Assembly (NCBI GenBank): GCA_024230435.1
Contig: JAAERL010000145.1
Coordinates: forward strand, 1-64,000
Origin: Desulfobacteraceae bacterium
GTDB lineage: Bacteria; Desulfobacterota; Desulfobacteria; Desulfobacterales; Desulfosarcinaceae
Direction: 5' to 3'
Length of the DNA: 64,000 nt
How positions within the stretch are numbered: position 1 is the first letter of the stretch; the number at the start of each line of letters is the position of its first letter. Below are positions 19,848 to 40,199 of this stretch, piece by piece. Both the position numbers and the translations under genes were made by a program. The notes under the pieces were generated by a model. The model saw nothing but the letters and a program-made list of their open reading frames with translations, was not told the DNA's origin and did no database searches.

Positions 19848-21998
19848 TCACTGCAGGACGCTGGTTATAAAGCATCCGCCACCGCCGCCACCGCCACCGC
19901 CGCTGGTACCGGCGCCGTAGTTTTTTGCGGCTTTATTTTCAATGACAGCGTCGATCTGCGGCGAATAGCCCCTTAGCCCGTTGGATGATGTTTTAATTTT
20001 CAACCGGTAATAATAAATCGTATTTTCGGACAGGCCATTGTCAGTATAGGTGGTGTTAGAGGCATCTGTGAAAGCGATGATTTCAAATTCGTTTTTCCCT
20101 GCGGCCCGGCGTTCAATTTGAACCTGATCGTTGAGATTAATTGCGGCTGACCATGAAAGCATTATGGTATTATTTTCCAAATTGCTCACTTTCAGGGAAA
20201 AATCACTGATCAATGTCAGAGAGTTATATGCGTTTGCCCGGCCTTCTGAAACAAGATTTTGCTTGAGATTCGGCCGTAAGTCCACGCTTTTTTCGATGAT
20301 ACTCTTGAGGTTGGAGATTTTTAGGTCTTCGTTTTCGGAACAAATCAGACCCGCAATGCCTGATATGAAACCGGCGGCCATGGAAGTGCCCTGCAAGTAT
20401 TGGTAAGTTTCAGAATCCGCGGCAGCCGTCACGGATACGTTATCTATAAAATAGCCGTCTCCTGTGCCGGTTTCATCCTCGTCGCTTATGAACCTGAATC
20501 GAAAATATAGCTGACTTTGATTTTCCCAGGCTCCTAAATCGACTGTTGCCGGTGTCCAATAGGGCAGTGTGCCGGAAATACCTTTTCTCATAAGAGTGCT
20601 GCCCAGCATTACCGGTCTGGATTTCCAGGCCTGACCATCAGTGGAAACTTCAACGTAAAGAAAATCAGCATTGTCTTGTGCGCTGCCGGTAATGATGAAA
20701 GATAGTCCCGGAGCGTGCTGGTTTTGCAGATCTATTGCCGGGGACATTGCCCAGGAATCGCTCTGGGCCGGGTAATCGTAATCCGGGCTGTTGGCAAGGG
20801 TTTCCGAACTGCCCGAATAAGGCGGATAAACAGCGTCCCAATCGGCGTTGTCACCTCCCAAAGTCCAGTTTGTCAGGGCTGCGGAATTAAAATCGTCCTC
20901 CCACACAACCTCCCTGCCGCTTGCAAGGCTAAGTATGATCGTGCCGGGCGCTGCAATATCCACGCTTTTTTTGCCAAAATTAGAAAACCAGGCCAATTCA
21001 TCGTTTTGATCTGTGGCGGCCACAGAGATGATATTAGTTAATTCATAGCTCGCGGGATAAAAAGGCTTGTAATCGTTGTTCGTACCATTATTGCCGGCGG
21101 CGCAAACAAACAACGCATCGGTTTTTTGAATGATCGATCTCATCGAAGCACTATATCCGGTACTGCCCCAACTGCAATTGATAATGCGCGCACCCTGGGC
21201 TGCAGCGTATTTAATGGCTTTAATGGCATCTGAGGTTGTACCACTGCCATTGGCATTCAAAAAACGCAGAGGCATAATGCCCGCTTGCCAGGTTACGCCG
21301 CTGATACCTGCTGCATTGGCGCCTTTTGCCGCGATAATACCCGATATATGGGTGCCATGTCCTGCAGCATCCTGGGCGATATTGTCACCGTCCACAAAAT
21401 CCCACCCGTGCACATCATCGATAAAGCCATTTTCGTCATCGTCAATTCCGTTATCGGGTATTTCATTGGGATTGGTCCACAGGTTGTTCTCAAGTTCAGG
21501 GTGTTTATGGTTAACGCCCGTATCTACAACGGCTATAACCACCCGGCTGCTGCCGGTGGTCATATCCCATGCCCGTAAGGCATCGATATCATTGCCTGAG
21601 GCGCCTGTTTTACCTCGAATGTTTTGGCCGGTGTTATGCAAAGCCCATTGCAATGCAAAACTCGGATCATTGAGTTCAGCCTGGGTGTGGATATAATAAT
21701 TGGGCTCGGCAAAGGCCACACGTTCATCCTTTGCATAGATTTTCAGGGCCTCTTGTACACTCAGATCCCGTGGAAGGGCTACATGCTGTATGCCGGTATT
21801 GCGCGGCATATTCAATGAGCGGATTTTCAGGCGATGTGCGTAATCTTTGGCGCCGGTTTGCCTTTGGCCGGGTTTGAAACGCACAAGCAATTCACCTGGT
21901 ACATAATCCTGGCGTCCGGCGTAGACTGTTGTTGTTCCCACAAGAGAGATGGTAACCGCAACGACACAAATCCCAATAATAGTGCGAGCCGAAAACAT
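19848..21998 (-). CDS. Secreted subtilisin-like serine protease (S8) with inserted jelly-roll and Gly-rich CFI tail
   Basis: 716 aa. The parts in order are: a signal peptide (about 1-28), an S8 pro-domain-like region (about 29-110, GELLVRFKPG), and a catalytic domain with Asp159 (VVDTG), His214 (GHGTH), Asn303 (AAGNN) and Ser539 (GTSMAAG). About 165 residues (363-527) are inserted between Asn303 and Ser539; they look like a MAM/immune-inhibitor-A type beta-sandwich (DDFNS..., DGYFIDNVSV). A fibronectin-III-like domain follows (about 600-690). The C-terminus is a run of nine Gly then CFITSVLQ. All catalytic residues are present. It is convergent with the HAD-AIR gene, with 17 bp between the stop codons. 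Confidence 0.92.
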   Translation of the reverse strand: MFSARTIIGICVVAVTISLVGTTTVYAGRQDYVPGELLVRFKPGQRQTGAKDYAHRLKIRSLNMPRNTGIQHVALPRDLSVQEALKIYAKDERVAFAEPNYYIHTQAELNDPSFALQWALHNTGQNIRGKTGASGNDIDALRAWDMTTGSSRVVIAVVDTGVNHKHPELENNLWTNPNEIPDNGIDDDENGFIDDVHGWDFVDGDNIAQDAAGHGTHISGIIAAKGANAAGISGVTWQAGIMPLRFLNANGSGTTSDAIKAIKYAAAQGARIINCSWGSTGYSASMRSIIQKTDALFVCAAGNNGTNNDYKPFYPASYELTNIISVAATDQNDELAWFSNFGKKSVDIAAPGTIILSLASGREVVWEDDFNSAALTNWTLGGDNADWDAVYPPYSGSSETLANSPDYDYPAQSDSWAMSPAIDLQNQHAPGLSFIITGSAQDNADFLYVEVSTDGQAWKSRPVMLGSTLMRKGISGTLPYWTPATVDLGAWENQSQLYFRFRFISDEDETGTGDGYFIDNVSVTAAADSETYQYLQGTSMAAGFISGIAGLICSENEDLKISNLKSIIEKSVDLRPNLKQNLVSEGRANAYNSLTLISDFSLKVSNLENNTIMLSWSAAINLNDQVQIERRAAGKNEFEIIAFTDASNTTYTDNGLSENTIYYYRLKIKTSSNGLRGYSPQIDAVIENKAAKNYGAGTSGGGGGGGGGCFITSVLQ

Positions 21999-22093: not shown

Positions 22094-22703
22094 GCTATGA
22101 CTTCAAATCCATAGATGCGATGATTTCATAACTATCGAATCTTACCGTATGATATCGGCCGGAATGAATTCGAACTTAAGGAGGGCGATAAAAATAACGT
22201 TACAATTCATCTGCTCCTTTTTACTTATTTAAAGGTCTTAACTGGTTAACTAACTGCTGATTTTTTCATCCGGCGTATTATCTTGAAAACATAGCAAATA
22301 TATGTTTTTTCCTGTTCCAAAAATGAACCGGTGAAAAAGGATGCTCCGATGACACGGTTTGCCGCAAAGCCAGTAAATACAAAGAGTTCGGTTCAACTCA
22401 ACGAAAATAAGTTTGAGCAATTTATCTTGCCTTGCTTCAAGTTTGAGCAATTTACCTTGCCTTGCTTATCGATGCCCAAAAAGGGGGGCCAGAGTGTAAA
22501 ATAAGGTATCTGACTGCTATATACTCAGAGCATCTTCGAGAATCCCGGCGCCGCCATAACAGCAAGCGTTTGACATCGCGATTGATGTTACTATTCTATA
22601 ATTATTCACCTGCCAATGCGATTGATCACACTATCTTGAATTTTATTCTCAAATTAATTTCCAAAAAACAGCCGTGAAAGGTTCCGGCAAAAAGGAGGAT
22701 GCC
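22094..22703. other. Intergenic region with tandem duplication, no supported gene
   Basis: About 600 bp upstream of the ABM gene. A 30-bp unit (AAGTTTGAGCAATTTATCTT...) is duplicated at 22409-22438 and 22439-22468 with one or two differences. An isolated ribosome-binding-like AAGGAGGG occurs at 22178. No coding region is convincing; small frames here look like decayed sequence. Confidence 0.5.
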
Positions 22704-23048
22704 ATGACTGTAAAAATATTGCTTGAGAGAAAATTTAAAGAAGAGCCAAGTTTGGAAGAAATAAAAATTATTAACGAGCTTAGAATGGGGGCAATGCTGC
22801 GCAAAGGTTATGTCAGCGGCGAGACTTTGGTTGATTTAAACGATCACCGGAGAATTGTCGTAATTTCTGTCTGGGCAAACAAAGAAGACTGGAAAGAATG
22901 GGAAAGTTCGGATCACAGGAGAAAGCTTGAGGCCAATCTTAATGAAACCCTTAAAAAAAGCGCTGTTGTCCGAACCTTTATGCTAGGGGCCGATTATTTG
23001 GGCGCTGTTTTTGAAGAAGTTGTACACGAATCGGAAGCAGGCTCTTAA
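22704..23048 (+). CDS. Antibiotic biosynthesis monooxygenase (ABM)-fold small protein
   Basis: 114 aa from the ATG at 22704 after AAAAAGGAGGAT. The fold is a dimeric alpha-beta barrel of the ABM type (EIKIINELRMGAM..., RIVVISVWANKEDWKEWESSDHR...). Members act as small oxygenases, dehalogenases or have no catalytic role, and the active site is not obvious here. The 3' part of the gene is contained in a 379-bp segment (22737-23115) repeated at 35361-35739, where the reading frame has a TAG stop. The tail of this copy (about 23060-23115) matches the 3' end of the ChaN gene, so this copy seems to have been copied from that site. Confidence 0.75.
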   Translation: MTVKILLERKFKEEPSLEEIKIINELRMGAMLRKGYVSGETLVDLNDHRRIVVISVWANKEDWKEWESSDHRRKLEANLNETLKKSAVVRTFMLGADYLGAVFEEVVHESEAGS

Positions 23049-23115
23049 TCCGGATTCAGGCTATTTTGGAACTCGCCTTGCGGGGACGGCAGATTTGGTT
23101 ACCCAAATATAATCG
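22737..23115 (+). repeat. 379-bp direct repeat, copy 1 (left border of island)
   Basis: Aligns without gaps to 35361-35739 with about ten mismatches, in the same orientation. It spans most of the ABM gene, the intergenic part and the last about 50 bp of the ChaN gene as it occurs at the other site. The two copies bracket about 12.2 kb. Confidence 0.95.
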
Positions 23116-23128
23116 ACGGATTTTAACG

Positions 23129-24227: not shown

Positions 24228-27074
24228 TCAATACGCCAAGGTTGAAATAAAACAACCGCTGCCGCTGCCGCTGTCGCTGGGGGTGCTGCTCGATGGCGTA
24301 TCCACCACAGTGCCGCTCAGTTGAATGTTCATTGTGGATTGCTCCGGATCATCGGAGTAAATGTCCAGGCTGCCGCTTTGGGATCCTATCGCTGTCCTTG
24401 CAAAATGGACGGAAACAGTACAATGTTCGCCGCTGGACAACTCAACGGCGGTATTTCCGCAAGGTGTGTCCCCACCGTTGACATTCAAAGAAAATAGGGA
24501 GCTTCCGGACAGATTCATATTCGAGATGGTCAGGTTTTCTTCTGATCCAAAATTGTAAATACTCACTGAAGATACCAACGGCGATGAGGCATTGATCCCT
24601 ATATTCCCAAAACTGATGGATTCAGGTATGGACTCAATATCCTGAAGGCCTTGCACACCGATGCCCTCAAGTTCCACGGCCGCTGAGCCGTAATCTGCCG
24701 TAATTTCAAGCCGGGTACTGAGAATTCCTTTTTCGCCGGGACTGAAAAGCACGCCCACCGTGCAACTTTCGCCGCCGGGCAGATCAATGGGCGCCGGTCC
24801 GCAGGGATCGCCGCCAACATTGAGATCCAACGTAAAATGAGTGTCTTCCTGAAAGGAAATGGCAGTGACAGTCAAACCGGTCGATTCAGTGTTGGACAGG
24901 GTGACCTCCAAGGCTTCTGAAGCAGCTCCGACATCTACACCAAAATCAAAATCATAGGCTGAGGGGGTGACAGAGAGAGTTCCCACTGAGCGAGCGTATC
25001 TTAAGCCCCGCCGGGTCATATCGTAATAGCTGATCCGGACTCTGCTTTCACTCGTAATTGCAATGGAGCTGTAAAGGCCGACGTTACCAATTGAGCTGAC
25101 GTTTTCAGGTTCTTCAAAGTCGCCCAAGGTTCCGTATACATACCTCAGATTACCGTAGCTTTCATTGTAATAACTGATATGGACCGTATCGGCTTCATCC
25201 GCGATGATAGATGTGTGGCTGCCAGTGTTGGCGGTACTGTCTACAACCTGAGGTGTTTGCCATCCCGTTTCATTTTGAAACGCATATTTGAGATCGCCCG
25301 AGGTAGCGTCATAATAGCTCACATGCGCCCTGTTCGAGCTGTCCAGGCAGATGTCGTTATATTCTCCTACGTCATTGGCATTGGCGCCATCAATACGTTC
25401 GGGGGTCGACCACGATTCCGAGGCGCCGGTCACATACCACAAATCCCCGTCGGTTTCGTCGTAGTAACTGATATGCACGTTGTCCGATCCATCAACGGCA
25501 ATTGAAGTATAACGGCCCACATCACCCGTACTGTCGATGGTTTCGGGTCCGGGGGTAGTCCAAGATCCGGCAGAGCCGGTGACATACATCAAATCCCCAT
25601 CGGTTTCGTCGTAGTAACTGATATGCACATTTGACGATCCATCAACGGCAATTGAAGTATAAAGACCCACATCATCCGTACTGTCAACGGCTTCTGGGGT
25701 GGACCAGTTTCCATACGTGCCCGTGACATACATCAGGTCCTTGTCGGTTTCGTTGTAGTAGCTGATATGGATGGTATCCCCGGCGTCGGTGGCAATCGAT
25801 GTATAACGACCCACCGATTCGGTGTTATCAACAACCTGCCTGCGCCATGAACCGGATGAATTGGTAGCGTAAAGCAAGGCCGACCGGTCGACATCATAAT
25901 AACTGATATGCAGATTGCCGTCGGAATCCACGGCCATCGAGGTATACAGGCCGATATCCTCCGAGCCGTCAATGACTTCAGCATCGCTCCAATCACCCCT
26001 TGTGCCCGTGGTGTACGATAAGTCGCCATCACTGCCGTAATAGATGATATGCGCCTCATCCGAAGCATCCATAGAAATGGAGGTGAACACGCTGACGGCA
26101 TCCGATGTGTAAACGCCTTCGGATTGCCAGGATCCGGCACTGCCAACGGCGTATTTTATCCTGGCATTGATTTGATCATAATAACTCAGGTGCGCTTGGC
26201 CCGAGGCGTCTAGCGCGATGGATGCAAACCGCCCCACGCCCGAGTCGTCATCCACGGTATCGAGGCTCCATTCCGACGTATAGTTGGCGTATTTCAGTGT
26301 GGCATTGCCTTCGTCATAATAGCCGATGTGAACATCACCAGAATCATCCACGGCTATGGAGCTGTATTGTCCCACCTCGCCTTCGTCATCCACTACTTCA
26401 TCGTCGGAAAACGTGCCATTGCCGGTACCCGTTACGTATTTGAGCTGCGTGTTGGTTGCGTCATAATAGCTGATATGGATATTTCCCGATGAATCGGTGG
26501 CAATGGAGGAAAATTGCCCCACATCCCCGGAACTGTCTACAGTTGTGCTGACCCAACTACCGGAAGCATTGGTGGCATATTTCAATGAGCTGTTATCAAC
26601 ATCGTAGTAGCTGATATGGGCATTGTTGGAAGTATCGGCAACAATACAGGTGTGTTGGCCAACGTTTCCGTCATCATCGACGGTCACACTTGACCACGAT
26701 CCCGAGATGTTGCTGATGTATTTGAGCTCCTCGTTGTCTCCATCGTAATAGCTGATGTGAATCGTACCGTTGCCGTCGATGGCGATGGCCGCATATTCAC
26801 CGGCGCCGTCAGAATCGTCCAGGTTTTCCACCTGCCACTGGCTGCCATCAAGGTAGGCATAGTAAAGATGATCCCCCCCATATACAACGTGAGGACTGCC
26901 GGATGCATCAACGGCCATGGAGCGAGAGGTTAAATTGGTAAAAAACTGATCCGGCAAATCAATGCTTACCCTTGTCCATGTTGCCGCTTCAGTTTGGCCG
27001 TTATTCATCAGCAGGACCGCCAGAATCAAAAAAAGCAAGTTTGGGAACATGAAGTGCTTCATAATTTTTTTCAT
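24228..27074 (-). CDS. Exported repeat protein: 14 propeller-like repeats, two choice-of-anchor-D domains, CFI tail
   Basis: 948 aa from the ATG at 27074, selected by GGAGGC 7 bases upstream. A signal peptide (about 8-30) is followed by 14 repeats of about 45 residues, each built around [I/V]DSSGN[V/I]HISYYD...LKYVT...GSW, a beta-propeller-like unit. Two Ig-like choice-of-anchor-D domains follow (each with FDFGVDVG or FGNIGINA and a C-rich turn ending in ESCTV or EHCTV), with paired Cys. The end is a Ser/Gly linker and CFISTLAY. It probably sits on the cell surface or is secreted, binding sugars or proteins. The neighbouring subtilase has the same type of tail. Confidence 0.85.
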   Translation of the reverse strand: MKKIMKHFMFPNLLFLILAVLLMNNGQTEAATWTRVSIDLPDQFFTNLTSRSMAVDASGSPHVVYGGDHLYYAYLDGSQWQVENLDDSDGAGEYAAIAIDGNGTIHISYYDGDNEELKYISNISGSWSSVTVDDDGNVGQHTCIVADTSNNAHISYYDVDNSSLKYATNASGSWVSTTVDSSGDVGQFSSIATDSSGNIHISYYDATNTQLKYVTGTGNGTFSDDEVVDDEGEVGQYSSIAVDDSGDVHIGYYDEGNATLKYANYTSEWSLDTVDDDSGVGRFASIALDASGQAHLSYYDQINARIKYAVGSAGSWQSEGVYTSDAVSVFTSISMDASDEAHIIYYGSDGDLSYTTGTRGDWSDAEVIDGSEDIGLYTSMAVDSDGNLHISYYDVDRSALLYATNSSGSWRRQVVDNTESVGRYTSIATDAGDTIHISYYNETDKDLMYVTGTYGNWSTPEAVDSTDDVGLYTSIAVDGSSNVHISYYDETDGDLMYVTGSAGSWTTPGPETIDSTGDVGRYTSIAVDGSDNVHISYYDETDGDLWYVTGASESWSTPERIDGANANDVGEYNDICLDSSNRAHVSYYDATSGDLKYAFQNETGWQTPQVVDSTANTGSHTSIIADEADTVHISYYNESYGNLRYVYGTLGDFEEPENVSSIGNVGLYSSIAITSESRVRISYYDMTRRGLRYARSVGTLSVTPSAYDFDFGVDVGAASEALEVTLSNTESTGLTVTAISFQEDTHFTLDLNVGGDPCGPAPIDLPGGESCTVGVLFSPGEKGILSTRLEITADYGSAAVELEGIGVQGLQDIESIPESISFGNIGINASSPLVSSVSIYNFGSEENLTISNMNLSGSSLFSLNVNGGDTPCGNTAVELSSGEHCTVSVHFARTAIGSQSGSLDIYSDDPEQSTMNIQLSGTVVDTPSSSTPSDSGSGSGCFISTLAY

Positions 27075-27227
27075 AACAATGCCTCCAATAAGTTCAAGGC
27101 CTAGCGTCAAAGCTTGGAAACAAGGTCTGACGTTAAACCTTGAATAGCTGTTTTATTTTGATATGAGGAATAAATAACAAACGGTAATGGTTAATATAGA
27201 AAAGGTTCGTTGTCAAAACTAAAAACA

Positions 27228-27253: not shown

Positions 27254-27414
27254 CTTTATGATTTTACGGGTGTGTTCCACCTTTTATATAAGGTTTCCTG
27301 AACTACAGATAATATGTTGTAATTTCAGTCAAAATTTTGCAAATAGATTAATATAAAGTGTTTAAAAACCTTGTAAAATCAACAAAAACCTTTGCCCTTT
27401 TTACCAAGAAACTC

Positions 27415-27795
27415 ATGTATAAACACAATTTAAAACAGATGGAATTCGAAAATTTTGATCTTCCCTTTGATGGACGGTTGCGCAGCGATAATCGCCGGGT
27501 GAAACTGGCTAAGTTTATTCCTTGGGAAGAATTTGAAATAGCTTATGCCAAGAACTTTTCAAGTTCCGGAGTAGGTCCTCCCGCCATGTCAGTGCGAATT
27601 GCTATGGGTGCTCTGATCATAAAGGAAGAACTTGGGGCCTCCGATGAAGAAACGGTTGAGCAGATTCGTGAAAATCCTTATCTGCAATACTTTTTAGGCT
27701 TTACTGATTACTGCGATAAAAAACCGTTTCATCCAACAATGTTTGTTCATTTTAGAAAACGATTTGGCAAAAAAGCAATTTGCCGGATCACCGGA
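27415..27795 (+). pseudogene. IS5/IS1182-like transposase, N-terminal half only
   Basis: About 125 residues match the N-terminal DUF772-type region (FIPWEEFEIAYAKNF, AMSVRIAMGALIIKEELG, YLQYFLGF, FVHFRKRF). The DDE catalytic region is missing: similarity ends near 27790, after which the frame runs on through G-rich simple sequence to a stop near 28044. The apparent longer N-terminus from 27358 is not needed; the ATG at 27415 fits the family. Confidence 0.85.
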
Positions 27796-27826
27796 ACGGT
27801 GAACCAAAAAGCAAGAGTGACCAAAA

Positions 27827-27897
27827 GGGGGAAGTTGGGGAAGTTGGGGAAGTTGGGAAGAGAGAGGTACGGTCGTGGTTGGGCGGGGGAGGGGGGA
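27827..27897 (+). other. G-run tandem repeats with G-quadruplex motif
   Basis: GGGGG-AAGTT-GGGG-AAGTT-GGGG-AAGTT-GGG (27827-27857) is a canonical G-quadruplex pattern, and another G-rich stretch follows at 27881-27897. Complementary CCCAACTG and CCCCAACTG blocks lie at 27936-27955, so the region could also fold into long-range stems. It lies at the breakpoint of the transposase remnant. Confidence 0.8.
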
Positions 27898-28077
27898 GCT
27901 ATTGTTTTTTACTTGACAATACTTATCATGGATGTCCCAACTGTTTCCCCAACTGTTTTGTTTTCACCGTCTGCGGACATTGAATCGATTCTACTGCCGC
28001 AACCGTATGTGATGTCGATGTTGCCTTCAGCAGTCTATATCTGAATAAGTTCGCTTGCATCATATATTTCGCTTGCA

Positions 28078-30115: not shown

Positions 30116-30157
30116 GAAGTTGTGCACGAATCGAAAACAGGCTCTTAATCCGGATTA
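30116..30157 (+). repeat. Third, short fragment of the ABM gene 3' end
   Basis: 42 bp match 23027-23068 (and 35651-35692) with three or four changes, covering the last codons and stop of the ABM gene. It shows that this segment moved or was copied at least twice. Confidence 0.7.
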
Positions 30158-30825: not shown

Positions 30826-33417
30826 TTATGTCCTAATCTCAACAGCAGGTGCAATTCGGTTGCGAACTTCATTGTAGATAGGCAAATCAACGCTTTCCGC
30901 CACCTCAAGTGATACAGCGAGCCCATATGCAATCGGATGTTCAATCTTTCGAGCATCTTTGCGACAGTTGACTTTTATTTTAAGAGTATCCCCATCGGAA
31001 ATCGCGACAGCGCTTTTACCTTCAAAGACTTCATGTTGAACAGTTCCTCTTCGAGTTGCATCACTATCACTGTCAACGCTGGTTACACGCAGTTTACCCT
31101 TCAGCTTTTCACGCGATTTCTTCCCATCCTCAAAATCAAACCAAAGTTGAGCTTCTCGATACCGCTGTGTTGTCGAAGCAACAGGTGAAAGCCAAGCAAG
31201 CGTAACAGTGAATTTACGCCACTCACGCTGGGCACTTAATGAAGGTGGCAACGGAAGATTATAAACGTGAGCTTCTCCATCGTTTAACTGGCCAAAACCA
31301 AGGATAGTAGCCCGCTGCTCGTTGCAGCCTAAAGTTTTTTCTATATCCGGCACACCGTAACCAAGCCATCTTAAAATCCAGTTTTTTATCTGCCTGCCGT
31401 TATCATCAGTTCTCAGTAACTTATCCAGCTTTTTTCCCAGTTCTTTCCAGCTACAGCCATGAACCAAAATGGCTTTAAGGATTGGAACTCCGAAAACGGA
31501 AAAATCGACATCCGGTGCTTGCTCAGCAAATATTGACGATAGGTAGTCAAAGCAGATGCTCGCAGTCCTGCTTGCAAGTGCTGCAGAATTACTGCTGCCG
31601 CAGCAAAACTTGCTTTTATTCAACTCACCGGCTTGGTCACTTGGGGCCGCCACTTGATTGCCGGGTGCGACTATTCTATTGCTGAATTGAAGTAAAGAAT
31701 TACCCGATTCTAAAGGTAGGCTGTATAGTACCCGGCCACCTGAAAACAAAAGATCCGGTTTGATTGATTTTCGATACCCAGAGCCAAATGCTGAAACTGG
31801 ACTTGGAAGAGGCGATTCAAAGACATCCACAACGGAACCGATCGAACCATTTTGAGAATTATCATGATGGAACGCTCCAACTGTCAGTCCATTGATACTC
31901 TCTGCAGGTGATAATAGCCTTCGGTGTCGAGCATCCTCATAGATTTTTTTAGCAATCAGAGCCTCACGTTCATTTGAGCCTAAGTCTTCGAAGTCACGGC
32001 CCGACATTCCTGTATCGATTGGTTCGGGATGGTTCCCGGAGCTAATAACAAACAGAATATTGTATTTTGCGCTTAACCAATCCAGTAACCGGGCAAGCGG
32101 GCTCATAACCTGAGAGAAATGTCGGGAGCGATCACCAATGGAAAGATTAATCACCCTCACTGTAGGTGCTATCGCCTCATCATCACCGTCGCCTTCCATT
32201 ATCCGTTTTACGGCCCTATGGATATAATCAACCAAAAGCGCATCTTCTGGAACACATTCTTCTCGTGGGCGGTTAAAGTCTGTTAGATTTGGTCTCATTA
32301 TTGGTCGGACATAGACAGGCCTGCTCAAAGGGGCTGAACCGTTGTTAAGATCTCCATGAATGATAAGCGAAGTCATTGCCGTACCATGCTGGCGATCAAT
32401 AGCGGGATATTCCGAAGCCCAATTGTCAGGGTCATCAACGATCAATCTCTCGGAAAGAAGTCTGTGGTTTTCAAGTGGAAGACCGTCAAGGACAGCCACT
32501 ATAGGATCACCTGTTGGCATCTCATCAGAAGCAACAGTACAATCAGAAACATCACCTTCGATAGGCTCTTTTCCTGTAGCCATTTGGCCGGTAGGTCTGA
32601 TAAACATGATGTTTTCACATTTGATCAGGTCCACTTCCGGCTGCTCAAGTATCTGCTGAGCTGCCTGAGCCGGGATTTCTCCTAAAACTGAGTGATAGGC
32701 AATAGAGGATATAACGCATTGAGAAATTACTATTCCATCAAGATCCTTAATCAACCCGGCAACAATGCTCTCACTTTCCCTGCGATTTTCATCATTTCCT
32801 CGATACCAAAGTTCTGCTTCGAAACGGACATTTCGCTGGGCGTCATGCTCAAGGTCCTCCTTCCAAATCTCAAAGACTTCCCGTTCTGCCAGACGATCTT
32901 CAACGCCCCATCTACGGATATCTTTTAGATGCCGGAATACATCACGAAATTTTGTCAGACCACGCTGAAACGTCATGGATGTATCTGCTTGATATTTAGT
33001 CCACAGTGACAGCATTTGTGTAAGAGCTGTCTGGTTGCTCATAATCAAATAGAGACGTCCGCTAAGCTCCTTTTCAGGTTTCTTATCATCATAAAAATCT
33101 TCATCAGGAGCAATCTCATCGGTCTCGATTTCTCCCATCCACTCGAGCCCAGGGATTTTCTTAACCGCATTGGCGAAGTTTTCTATGTTGCCAACTGTTT
33201 CAATAACGAGGACTTGTTCGGGATCAATACCGGACGGAGTCTGTTGCAGTTCGACACATCGAGCATTGAAAGATTCTTGTAATTGTTGAAAGACAGGTGA
33301 AAGGCGTTCCCCCTGTCGTCCAACAGAGGGTCTATGAACCTTTCCCGGAACCATTTTGCGCTTCGTTCGATCCGCAACCTCCGGCAAAGGGAAAAGTAAA
33401 AGAGGTAACTCTGCCAT
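30826..33417 (-). CDS. ietS: Subtilisin-like serine protease of an IetAS-type defence operon
   Basis: 863 aa. The start is the ATG at 33417, which shares one base with the TGA of the ATPase (TGATG), so translation is coupled. The N-terminal 300 residues are unlike secreted subtilases and there is no signal peptide, so the protein is cytoplasmic. The catalytic residues are Asp311 (AVLDGLP), His344 (RQHGTAMTS), Asn462 (ISSGNHPE) and Ser609 (CGSSNSAAL). The C-terminal domain (about 690-863) is beta-rich. This AAA+/subtilase pair is the IetAS defence arrangement; the homologous pair was first described as a plasmid-stability toxin-antitoxin pair. Known systems have two genes; here an XRE regulator also precedes them. 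Whether this copy is active against phage is inferred from family. Confidence 0.85.
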   Translation of the reverse strand: MAELPLLLFPLPEVADRTKRKMVPGKVHRPSVGRQGERLSPVFQQLQESFNARCVELQQTPSGIDPEQVLVIETVGNIENFANAVKKIPGLEWMGEIETDEIAPDEDFYDDKKPEKELSGRLYLIMSNQTALTQMLSLWTKYQADTSMTFQRGLTKFRDVFRHLKDIRRWGVEDRLAEREVFEIWKEDLEHDAQRNVRFEAELWYRGNDENRRESESIVAGLIKDLDGIVISQCVISSIAYHSVLGEIPAQAAQQILEQPEVDLIKCENIMFIRPTGQMATGKEPIEGDVSDCTVASDEMPTGDPIVAVLDGLPLENHRLLSERLIVDDPDNWASEYPAIDRQHGTAMTSLIIHGDLNNGSAPLSRPVYVRPIMRPNLTDFNRPREECVPEDALLVDYIHRAVKRIMEGDGDDEAIAPTVRVINLSIGDRSRHFSQVMSPLARLLDWLSAKYNILFVISSGNHPEPIDTGMSGRDFEDLGSNEREALIAKKIYEDARHRRLLSPAESINGLTVGAFHHDNSQNGSIGSVVDVFESPLPSPVSAFGSGYRKSIKPDLLFSGGRVLYSLPLESGNSLLQFSNRIVAPGNQVAAPSDQAGELNKSKFCCGSSNSAALASRTASICFDYLSSIFAEQAPDVDFSVFGVPILKAILVHGCSWKELGKKLDKLLRTDDNGRQIKNWILRWLGYGVPDIEKTLGCNEQRATILGFGQLNDGEAHVYNLPLPPSLSAQREWRKFTVTLAWLSPVASTTQRYREAQLWFDFEDGKKSREKLKGKLRVTSVDSDSDATRRGTVQHEVFEGKSAVAISDGDTLKIKVNCRKDARKIEHPIAYGLAVSLEVAESVDLPIYNEVRNRIAPAVEIRT

Positions 33418-34415
33418 CAATCAATTCCCATATTTTTTTGTTCAATTTTTACAGAACGGGCAGCCCAGTGCTTTAATGTACGACTGATGATTCCCTTCAT
33501 ATCCGCATTTGGTTGTTCCAAAACATATTGGCGGAAGACCGTTGCCCCGAATTCCTCGATTTCAGCAAAATTTAAACCATACAATTTTTTTGCCAGTGTG
33601 CCCGGAGTGTATCCAAGGTTAATGTCGAGTCTTCGATGGAAGCGTTCAAACCATTCTTCAAGGCGGACACGAGTCGGTTCTGGTAGATCCATTCTTACTT
33701 GAAAACGCCGCCAGACAGCTCGATCCAGTAATTCCGGATGGTTGGTTGCTCCGATCACCACAACATGGCTTGGCAACGCGTCAATTTGCATCAGTAAAGA
33801 GCTTACAACACGTTTGATTTCACCTGTTTCATGGGTGTCGCCTCGCTCTTTGCCCAGTGTTTCAAATTCATCAAAAAAGAGGACGCATTTACGGGTGCAG
33901 GCATGATCAACCAGTCGACGCAGCCTGACTGCCGTTTCACCAAGATAGGTGCCGACAACGCCTTCATACCGGACCACATAGAGCGGAACCATCAATGATT
34001 CCGCAATAGCTTCAGCAAGTGATGTTTTACCGTTTCCGGGAGGGCCGATCAGAAGAACCCGGTTCCGAGGCTCAAGGCCGTATGAACGCAATAAATCTGT
34101 CCGGTGATGTTCCTGCACCACTTCGCGACAGATTTGTTTCACCTCTTCTGAAAGTATAAGGTCATCCAGTTTTTTTTGAGGAGAGACTTCATGCAGGAGA
34201 TTATCAACCTGCTGCGTCAAAAGTGTTGAGAAGGTTCCGTTTGTCACCTGCTTAGGCTCTGAGTATAGAAGCAACTTCTCCAAATTGTCAGCCAGAACCG
34301 TATGCTGCTTGGCACGTTCTTCAGCGATAATAGTTTCAACCACTTTCCGGAAACGGGCATTATCACCATTGACGCCGAATTTTACTAAACTGGTTAATAG
34401 ATCAGCTCTCGCCAT
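33417..34415 (-). CDS. ietA: AAA+ ATPase of an IetAS-type defence operon
   Basis: 332 aa. Walker A is GPPGNGKT (124-131), Walker B is VLFFDEFE with Asp182-Glu183, sensor 1 Asn225 lies in IGATNHPE, and Arg-finger candidates are Arg236-Arg237 in the ELLDRAVWRRF segment. The N-terminal 90 residues are helical and the C-terminal domain is the small lid (about 240-320). It overlaps the end of the upstream XRE gene by 14 bp and is translationally coupled to the subtilase. In the two-gene system the ATPase is thought to control the protease. The ribosome binding site is within a run of nine G's just before the ATG at 34415. Confidence 0.9.
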   Translation of the reverse strand: MARADLLTSLVKFGVNGDNARFRKVVETIIAEERAKQHTVLADNLEKLLLYSEPKQVTNGTFSTLLTQQVDNLLHEVSPQKKLDDLILSEEVKQICREVVQEHHRTDLLRSYGLEPRNRVLLIGPPGNGKTSLAEAIAESLMVPLYVVRYEGVVGTYLGETAVRLRRLVDHACTRKCVLFFDEFETLGKERGDTHETGEIKRVVSSLLMQIDALPSHVVVIGATNHPELLDRAVWRRFQVRMDLPEPTRVRLEEWFERFHRRLDINLGYTPGTLAKKLYGLNFAEIEEFGATVFRQYVLEQPNADMKGIISRTLKHWAARSVKIEQKNMGID

Positions 34416-34635
34416 GCCCCCCCCCTACTGCGGAGGCTTTGTCGTTTTGTAACTTAGCGAGCAGATTATTGAATTGGTTTCTTGCTAGTTTAGAAGGATA
34501 GGTCTTCCCATTCTCCCACCGATTAACTGTGGCAAAACTGACCCCTATAGTGCGGGCAAGGTCTTCTTGGCTCAGGTTTAACTGTCTGCGAACCTTTTTA
34601 ACAAGTTCTGAAAAATTTTCCGACTCTGCGATCAT
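34402..34635 (-). CDS. XRE-family helix-turn-helix regulator
   Basis: 77 aa. It is a Cro/CI-type HTH (residues about 10-60: SQEDLARTIGVSFATVNRWENG). The last codons pass through a run of nine G's (Gly-Gly-Gly) and the gene ends 14 bp inside the ATPase gene. It is the first gene of the three-gene operon and probably represses it. Loss of one G from the run would remove the stop and join this frame to the ATPase frame. Confidence 0.88.
   Translation of the reverse strand: MIAESENFSELVKKVRRQLNLSQEDLARTIGVSFATVNRWENGKTYPSKLARNQFNNLLAKLQNDKASAVGGGHGES
34417..34425 (-). repeat. G9 homopolymer at the XRE/ATPase junction
   Basis: Nine C's on the plus strand (nine G's on the coding strand). The tract encodes Gly-Gly-Gly of the XRE protein and also lies in the ribosome binding region of the ATPase. 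The XRE and ATPase frames differ by one base, so G8 gives the continuous reading ...A-V-G-G-G-M-A-R-A-D..., an HTH-AAA fusion. Confidence 0.95.
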
Positions 34636-34842: not shown

Positions 34843-34997
34843 TAGTTTTTATAGCACTTGCTATGTCATATGCAAATGTGTTTTGCAAGCTTAGTTATAA
34901 TTTCGACCAGAGCAACCGCATTTATAAATCATTAGAAACTACGGGGACGCCCCTTAAATTAGAGCTATAACCAAAAGTTGTGTTTAGAGAGTTAGGT
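34843..34997. other. Spacer between family-2 repeat and IS256 remnant
   Basis: No supported gene. The stretch TGCAAGCTTAGTTATAAT near 34884 resembles a piece at 15758-15790 (GGCTTGGTTATAACTTCGGCC), possibly a further part of the family-2 repeat. Confidence 0.4.
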
Positions 34998-35066
34998 GGT
35001 GTATCCACCGGTTGATTGTTTGCGAAGCAATTAACCGGACCAAAAAACAGGAAAGGATACACACAC
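34998..35066. repeat. IS256 left end/leader with nested palindrome
   Basis: GTGTATCC at about 34999-35006 pairs with GGATACAC at 35055-35062, and inside it CCGGTTGATTG (35008-35018) pairs with CAATTAACCGG (35028-35038). It is the structured leader just before the transposase ATG at 35068. Confidence 0.7.
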
Positions 35067-35067
35067 C

Positions 35068-35330
35068 ATGAGCAACGATAACGTAATCGATCTGAAACTT
35101 TTGTTGACGACCCAATTACCGGTATATTGCGGCAAGGAGCCAGAAAGTTGTTAGCTCAGGCATTGGAAGCCGAAATTGAGATTTTCATAAGTCAATATAG
35201 GGATTTGACCGATGAAATGGGACGGCAAAGAATTGTCCGAAACGGTCATCTTCCTGAGCGTGAAATTCAAACCGGCATCGGAGCTCAAATTTGGGTAACC
35301 CGCCGGCCTCGAGCCAGATTGATAGCGTTT
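35068..35330 (+). pseudogene. IS256-family transposase N-terminal remnant (frameshifted)
   Basis: Begins MSNDNVIDLK at 35068, then a frameshift near 35098 leads into DDPITGILRQGARKLLAQALEAEIEIFI and continues through REIQTGIG. The homology stops about 35280, where the sequence passes into unrelated bases and then the 379-bp repeat. The catalytic DDE part is missing. Confidence 0.85.
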
Positions 35331-35360
35331 CCTGTCCCACGTTCCCTGTCCCTGCCCCAC

Positions 35361-35672
35361 AAAGAAAAGCCAAGTTTGGAAGAAATAAAAATTATTAACG
35401 AGCTTAGAATGGGGGCAATGCAGCGCAAAGGTTATGTCAGCGGAGAGACTTTGGTTGATTTAAACGATCACCGGAGAATTGTCGTAATTTCTGTCTGGGC
35501 AAACAAAGAAGACTAGAAAGAATGGGAAAGTTCGGATCACAGGAGAAAGCTTGAGGCCAATCTTAATGAAACCCTTAAAAAAAGCGCTGTTGTCCGAACC
35601 TTTATGCTAGGGGCCGATTATTTGGGCGCAGTTTTTGAAGAAGTTGTGCATAAATCGGAAGCAGGCTCTTAA
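35361..35672 (+). pseudogene. ABM-fold protein, broken copy fused to IS256 debris
   Basis: Nearly identical to residues 12 onward of the gene at 22704-23048, but lacking the start and first 11 codons. The Trp codon of KEDWKEW is TAG at 35514-35516, cutting the frame. The 5' part is replaced by the IS256 remnant, with which it is in frame. The intact copy at 22704 appears to be the only functional one. Confidence 0.88.
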
Positions 35673-35739
35673 TCCGGATTCAGGCTATTTTGGAACTCGC
35701 CTTGCGGGGACGGCAGGTTTGGTTACCCAAATATAATCG
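35361..35739 (+). repeat. 379-bp direct repeat, copy 2 (right border of island)
   Basis: Gapless match to 22737-23115. Its last about 50 bp are the 3' end of the ChaN-like gene (encoding DYIWVTKPAVPARRVPK), so this is the ancestral position of the segment. The other copy carries the same ChaN end away from any ChaN gene. Confidence 0.95.
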
Positions 35740-36632
35740 GCGATGTCTTGCTTTACGGTTTCATGCACCGATGCCAGGTAAATGGTTTTATAGGATGCCC
35801 CGGTTCGCTTGAAGGCGCGTTCAGGGATGCCGAATTTGTGGATGATGTGGCCATTTCCCACAATTACAACCATTTTAGTATCCGCCATATTTTTGGAAAT
35901 GGCTTGTGCCATGCCGTCTTCCCAGGCGCATTGGGCTTCATAGAACGTCTCAAAGCTGCCGCGGCCCTTAAGACGTTTCATGTTAAGATGCATTTTGTAG
36001 ATGCTTTCAAGATAGGCACGGTGCTTTTTGCGGGAAGTATCGATTTGCTCCGGCAACATGGCTCTTTCATCTTCGGACAAGCTGCCAATGCCGCCTATGG
36101 CGATTTTGCGTGTAATATGAGAGGCGATATTCAGCCCGATAATGGGAATTCGATGCTCGCGGGCATACTTGAGGATACCTTCATATAAGCTGTCATCATA
36201 TCTCCAGTTGGCATACCAGTGAACCTGTTTGAGAAACGTTTGCCAATCCCAATTCCCGGAAACCCATTGATCGAGCTTTTGCTGATAGGTGCGGTCAAAC
36301 ATTTCCATGCCGAGGCTCAAGCACAAGCCTTTTTCCTGAAGGGCTTTGATGACGGCAAGCTGAATTTCGTGGTGGTGTATGTTGGTATGTTGTTCGCCGA
36401 TATAAATAATGTCCGTCTGGTGTAATTGGGCTACAAGTTCTTCAAAACTTATCGGGCGGTCCATAGCCGAGTCAAAAACGGCGCCGACTGGTAATGATTG
36501 TTTTACATTCTCTATTTTCAATACAGCAGGTTTTATCGTGCAGCCCGAACTGAAAAACAGCAATATAAGCGTTACTAGAATACACAATATGCCGGATGTT
36601 TTGCATGGATGAAACTGAGGTTTTTTTTTCAC
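35685..36632 (-). CDS. ChaN-like lipoprotein (haem-binding uptake family)
   Basis: 315 aa if started at the GTG at 36632, which puts a lipoprotein signal (CILVTLILLFFSSGC) at the N-terminus. The open frame extends to 36788, but that part lies inside a MITE-like repeat. The ChaN/Tiki-type motif is present: YIGEQHTNIHHHEIQ near the start of the domain, SLGMEMFDR, and VVIVGNGHIIHKFG near the end, with His and Glu residues that bind metal or haem. Such proteins sit in the outer membrane periplasmic face and help take up haem or iron. The last 17 residues are encoded by the 379-bp repeat. The gene runs toward, and its 3' end lies in, the repeat. Confidence 0.85.
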   Translation of the reverse strand: MKKKPQFHPCKTSGILCILVTLILLFFSSGCTIKPAVLKIENVKQSLPVGAVFDSAMDRPISFEELVAQLHQTDIIYIGEQHTNIHHHEIQLAVIKALQEKGLCLSLGMEMFDRTYQQKLDQWVSGNWDWQTFLKQVHWYANWRYDDSLYEGILKYAREHRIPIIGLNIASHITRKIAIGGIGSLSEDERAMLPEQIDTSRKKHRAYLESIYKMHLNMKRLKGRGSFETFYEAQCAWEDGMAQAISKNMADTKMVVIVGNGHIIHKFGIPERAFKRTGASYKTIYLASVHETVKQDIADYIWVTKPAVPARRVPK

Positions 36633-36679
36633 CGGTTGATTTTCAAGGGCTGGCAATGTTAGGAAAATGGTATTGGCGC

Positions 36680-36842
36680 TAAGGCGATTGGCGCAAAAGA
36701 ATATATCATATTGGACTGACTTTTTTTCGTCTTCAAGACGTGCAAAAGTTTGCATATTTAACATATTCGTACCTTTGGCATAACACACAAGACGGGAAAA
36801 AAGACATGCAAGCAGCTATATTCTTTGACACAAATCGTCTAA
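36680..36842. repeat. MITE-like repeat, copy E
   Basis: 163 bp, orientation as A and B, more diverged (left TAAGGCGATTGGCGC, right CAAATCGTCTAA). It lies between the ChaN gene and the divergent small membrane protein gene, so it may carry promoters for either or have displaced them. Confidence 0.85.
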
Positions 36843-40008: not shown

Positions 40009-40199
40009 TTTAGACGATTTTTGTTAAACAATATACCATCTTGCATGTCTTTTTTCCCGTCTTGTGTGCTATGCTAAAGGTGCGAATACTTTAAGTATGC
40101 AAACTGATCAGCAAACTTTGGCATGCCTTGAAGCCGAAAAAAATCTAAGCCTGATATGGTATCTGTTAAGATGCTATATTTTTTCCGCCAATCGCCTTA
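40009..40199. repeat. MITE-like repeat, copy F
   Basis: 191 bp, same orientation as C and D and nearly identical to D in the core. Ends with TTTCCGCCAATCGCCTTA. It lies between proC (transcribed away) and the FAD oxidoreductase gene (whose 3' end faces it). Confidence 0.9.

Follow-up and report, generated by a model that had tools for sequence, protein, structure and literature searches.

An XRE regulator gene and a conserved palindrome accompany a divergent IetAS-type ATPase-protease pair in a Desulfobacteraceae bacterium

When a small regulator gene precedes an AAA+ ATPase and a subtilisin-like protease, is it part of the system, and what might the three proteins do together? This question arises from a stretch of 64,000 nucleotides from a Desulfobacteraceae bacterium (the window), which contains the following features:

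34402..34635, minus strand: xre, a 77-aa HTH_3 (Cro/CI-type) regulator, the operon's first gene
33417..34415, minus strand: ietA, an AAA+ ATPase of 332 aa
30826..33417, minus strand: ietS, an S8 (subtilisin) protease of 863 aa, counted from the ATG
34402..34415, minus strand: overlap between the 3' end of xre and the start of ietA, 14 bp, read from the sequence
34850..34865, no strand assigned: predicted XRE operator, TATAGCACTTGCTATG, located with a matrix built without the window's own sequence

An earlier note on this DNA had described xre, ietA, and ietS as one unit, and the three open reading frames do lie at these coordinates. The overlap is 14 bp between xre and ietA, whereas ietA and ietS share a single base, within TGATG. 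A TTG one codon 5' of the ATG is a possible alternative start for ietS.

The pair belongs to a divergent subfamily of IetAS

A profile search of both proteins, which the earlier note had proposed, returned IetA and IetS. The ATPase matches PADLOC's IetA model PDLC04232 (502 bits, residues 1-325), and the protease matches the IetS model PDLC04233 (1118 bits, residues 1-861). As in the systems that PADLOC calls IetAS (IetA, PDLC04231/04232; IetS, PDLC04233/04234), the two genes are adjacent with the ATPase gene first, the matches are full-length, and the active sites (Walker A/B, and Ser-His-Asp with the oxyanion Asn) are intact. The tested pairs, however, fall in other subfamilies, and their proteases are only about 20% identical to the window's.

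The pair also scores below the cut-offs of the NCBIfam equivalogs for IteA (NF042959, 213 bits against a cut-off of 510) and IteS (NF042956, 92.6 bits against 900). A pTi-type pair (from pTi1D1460, which we used as a proxy for the pTiC58 pair) likewise falls below these cut-offs, so the NCBIfam models describe a narrower group. The window's pair and the pTi-type pair are 37% identical in the ATPase (over 244 aa) and 21% identical in the protease, and the catalytic positions of the window's IetS align with those of pTi-type and Klebsiella IetS. Judged by sequence, the PADLOC matches, the shortfall against NCBIfam, and the low identity to the pTi-type pair make this a member of IetAS in PADLOC's sense (PDLC04231-04234), in a separate and divergent subfamily. 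The IetAS label in the earlier note thus holds at the level of full-length PADLOC matches, but the subfamily is distant from the tested pairs.

SgiAT of Salmonella genomic island 1 (SGI1) and IetAS of the C58-type Ti plasmid also consist of an AAA+ ATPase and an S8 protease. Unlike the window's operon, the pTi-type pair (pTi1D1460) has no adjoining XRE gene, and IetAS as described in the literature that we searched has neither a third gene (XRE) nor an operator, whereas the window has the gene and a predicted operator. From the family, we infer a putative anti-phage role for the xre-ietA-ietS operon.

Both enzymes have intact active sites

The ATPase and protease motifs had been reported as intact, and they are conserved among relatives. 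Among 51 relatives of IetA, the Walker, sensor, and arginine positions (Walker A, GPPGNGKT at 124-131; D182-E183; N225; R236/R237) are invariant or nearly so. Asp311, His344, Asn462, and Ser609 of IetS do not vary among 52 relatives.

The AlphaFold2 model of IetA (pLDDT of 83.5) has an AAA fold by Foldseek, with a domain of the p97/FtsH/proteasomal type. In the model of IetS (pLDDT of 88.3, pTM of 0.90), residues 303-837 align with the subtilase KP-43 (1wmd; Z of 25.6, rmsd of 3.1 over 373 residues); this part of the model is a subtilisin domain with a C-terminal beta barrel. The same two parts make up KP-43 and Tk-SP (1wmd, 3afg), but those subtilases are secreted, while IetS lacks a signal peptide and has a longer N-terminal part. 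The absence of a signal peptide had been claimed before, and we agree that there is no obvious one, because the longest apolar run in the N-terminus (MAELPLLLFPLPEVADRTKRK) has only 9 residues.

The comparison of IetS by VIA-align has minimal coverage before residue 293. In the predicted topology, the order strand-helix-strand-strand-helix-strand occurs twice in this part, at residues 68-169 and 197-275. This order of helices and strands suggests two propeptide-like folds of the subtilisin type. None of the 52 IetS proteins has a match to Pfam's Inhibitor_I9 domain, even at E = 1, and a sequence search of the PDB found no relative of IetS.

A conserved palindrome lies upstream of xre

Every XRE-IetAS locus that we examined has a 16-bp palindrome, about TATARCATATGYTATA, upstream of xre. 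Nine such loci besides the window's have one or two copies each, near TATARCATATGYTATA, and from these nine, with the window's sequence left out, we built a matrix for the operator. Its best hit in all 64 kb of the window is at 34850-34865 (TATAGCACTTGCTATG), with 14.4 bits; the runner-up has 5.1 bits. Within the 350-bp upstream region, P = 0.0018 for this hit. In a leave-one-out analysis of all ten loci (7-64 kb each), the top-scoring site or sites were always just upstream of xre. Across 1.7 Mb of loci, hits of at least 14 bits were all upstream of this type of xre; the next hits, at 12.1-13.2 bits, were scattered. We also scanned viral contigs for the exact palindrome, without using any protein information, and obtained 106 stretches. 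In one of these (L249), XRE and IetA are directly downstream of the palindrome; the remaining exact occurrences are without IetAS, which is expected for a short pattern. The palindrome's conservation ahead of xre, the leave-one-out results, and the recovery of L249 indicate that XRE is very probably the operon's autoregulator, acting via the predicted operator.

The window's own site is among the weakest of the set, and it is 215 bp from xre, compared to about 15-80 bp in the relatives. In the relatives, the operator is where a promoter would be expected; because of the 215-bp distance, the position of the promoter in the window is uncertain. A mismatch scan that was limited to the 170 bp upstream of xre gave a best site with 5 mismatches (P = 0.38); the predicted operator is farther out. 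Simple counting of mismatches gives the window's hit no significance of its own, because a match at 3 mismatches is present in 63 of 100 shuffled versions of the whole window; the weight of the hit comes from the matrix score and the position. Two direct copies of the half-site TGYTATR are nearer to xre (P = 0.017), which we set aside as post hoc.

A predicted repressor with a palindromic site suggests how a toxin-like IetAS pair is kept off. The conserved repressor and its defined 16-bp site also offer a direct handle on how IetAS is silenced and switched, and the site can be used to find more copies, as with L249.

Regulators of several kinds precede ietA

The XRE protein matches Pfam's HTH_3 (E = 6.7e-13) and is 76% identical over 58 columns to an XRE protein from Lentisphaera. 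To survey the gene upstream of ietA, we used 71 genome loci with related IetA; the search that collected them used peptide patterns taken from IetA of the window, which biases the frequencies among them. An XRE gene of the same type is directly upstream of ietA in 8 of the 71 loci (L014, L045, L047, L049, L054, L055, L067, and L075) and also in a viral contig (L102). The earlier note had suggested a check of gene neighborhoods for a linked XRE gene, and the gene turned up again in Bacillota, Actinomycetota, and Lentisphaerota. Relatives from three or more other phyla thus have both this type of XRE and the palindrome upstream of it. We define these loci as three-component XRE-regulated IetAS, with one type of XRE upstream and the conserved palindrome; the window's operon has both.

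Other genes can occupy the same position. Seven loci from Bacteroidota (L040, L041, L044, L048, L050, L052, and L053) have a different HTH gene upstream of ietA, and L168 has an HTH_37 regulator. In L111, L115, L116, L118, and L163, the slot contains a small gene that we named ribbon-helix-helix-like (RHH-like) by eye; none of these five has a match in Pfam. The XRE gene had been called less usual, which is correct in that many relatives carry another regulator or a restriction-modification (RM) or BREX gene in its place; but it recurs and is no oddity.

Relatives are nested in other defense operons

BREX genes surround the pair in 12 of the 71 loci, typically in the order BrxC-PglXI-IetA-IetS-BrxH-PglZ (L015, L017, L018, L020, L023, L024, L029, and L036 have IetAS between PglXI and BrxH). 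Fourteen loci have one or more type I RM genes near the pair, and 4 have an HmaB-like methylase. In L006, L007, L012, L022, L026, L040, L041, L047, and L055, IetAS lies next to a type I RM operon or within it, and the gene order varies; in L006, for example, it is HsdM-HsdS-IetA-IetS-x-HsdR. Of roughly 20 such BREX loci sampled from the window's phylum, only 4 have IetA immediately after PglX, so IetAS is an optional insert in BREX. The subfamily is a modular plug-in, with relatives within BREX, type I RM, and Hma-like operons, and this nesting suggests that the protease can be a second line behind a defense that recognizes DNA. A 2026 survey of BREX does not mention subtilisin, subtilase, or IetA; there may be earlier reports of IetAS embedded in BREX.

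On a tree of IetA plus IetS, the context changes 17 times, compared to 29 times with shuffled labels (minimum of 24). The RM contexts on this tree (7 loci) require 7 changes, that is, a separate origin each time, while the XRE type requires 3 changes for 7 loci.

The window's copy is not nested in BREX: there is no match to PglX in its genome, and its flanking genes are of other kinds. It stands alone. Directly 3' of XRE-IetAS in two other loci (L045:9813-12981 and L049:9961-12957) are large NTPases of the NACHT/AAA type, one with a weak hint of a Cap4 nuclease.

Proposed mechanism and alternatives

The most economical reading would be a putative autoregulated defense module of the toxin-antitoxin kind. 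XRE would bind the palindrome upstream of its own gene and repress the operon, which would keep the protease-ATPase pair at a low level. IetA would restrain IetS, as its homolog does in SgiAT, whose ATPase suppresses the toxicity of the protease to E. coli (PMC5006074). When a phage or a competing plasmid enters, IetA might sense or lose something, and IetS would then cleave cytoplasmic targets and thereby stop growth or the invader. We consider it reasonably likely that the window's operon is such a stand-alone autoregulated module, with repression by XRE, restraint of IetS by IetA, and cleavage by IetS upon invasion.

The SgiAT study left regulation open (PMC5006074), but RptR, from the RptR-RM-DarTG-M48 island of E. 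coli, sets a precedent: it is a small repressor whose gene precedes RM genes that have a toxin-antitoxin pair embedded among them (PMC12255303). As in the window's operon, the repressor gene is first and the operators are palindromic, and as with IetAS in L006, the toxin-antitoxin pair is between hsdS and hsdR. However, RptR is not an XRE protein, the toxin of its island is a DNA ADP-ribosyltransferase, and the window's copy of IetAS stands alone.

More tentatively, IetAS could serve as a general effector cassette, with couplings to quite different triggers. A stand-alone copy would answer to XRE or to another repressor of the HTH or RHH-like type, whereas a copy nested in a BREX, type I RM, or Hma-like operon would answer to the machinery by which that system discriminates between DNAs. 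Where the pair stands alone, repression may be lifted through cleavage of XRE by the protease itself.

Alternatively, the operon could be mainly an addiction module that stabilizes a mobile segment, with IetS as the toxin, IetA as the antitoxin, and XRE as the autoregulator, in line with descriptions of pTiC58 and SGI1. Any role in phage defense would then be secondary or absent. SgiAT does act as a toxin-antitoxin pair and aids the retention of SGI1, although SgiAT expressed from its own promoter gave no postsegregational killing (PMC5006074). Relatives of the window's pair are found on plasmids and conjugative elements, and the operon itself is inside a segment bounded by a direct repeat, with transposase remains nearby. 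The embedding of many relatives in BREX, type I RM, and Hma-like operons fits defense better, however, and we consider addiction as the main role rather unlikely.

The 382-bp direct repeat (22737-23118 and 35361-35742, about 97% identical) is the 3' part of a small gene at 22674-23048. A third copy, of 41 bp, is inside the bracketed 12.2-kb segment (30116-30156), and a 19-bp core of the repeat occurs just three times in the genome. The setting had been described as transposase-rich, which is fair but loose, as there are two features of this kind near the operon:

27358-28044: open reading frame for a DUF772 transposase
about 34990-35360: IS256-like fragment, judged by eye

Another alternative is that XRE has no part in regulating ietAS, its gene being a chance neighbor or the remnant of a different system that it once controlled. 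The nearest relatives of IetA (L006-L010, 81-90% identity) have no xre, so the gene is dispensable in the window's clade. Also, HsdS (in L006) and the RHH-like upstream genes end at the same place inside ietA (+13), so the 14-bp overlap belongs to the leader of ietA and does not, taken alone, point to coevolution with xre. But XRE recurs across several phyla, one operator is common to all of the XRE-IetAS loci and is found nowhere else in those loci, and the distances among XRE proteins are correlated with those among IetA proteins (r = 0.44, P = 0.022, n = 8). We consider this alternative quite improbable.

Finally, a decaying remnant of a larger defense locus that has lost expression would suit the flanks of degraded repeats and transposase pieces and the displaced, weakened operator, but the three reading frames are intact, every catalytic residue is kept, and the GC content of the operon equals that of the window (45.8% versus 45.5%), which makes decay very improbable.

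Other features of the window

Two copies of a dispersed repeat, at 36721-36842 and 40010-40143, form an inverted pair. The first 25-50 residues of a ChaN-like open reading frame (35685-36788) derive from the first of these copies, and they match more than 20 other places in the genome. The window also encodes a second, secreted-looking subtilisin (19848-21998), whose tail (GCFITSVLQ) is similar to that of a repeat protein at 24228-27110 (GCFISTLAY). The two tails are perhaps a common C-terminal sorting signal.
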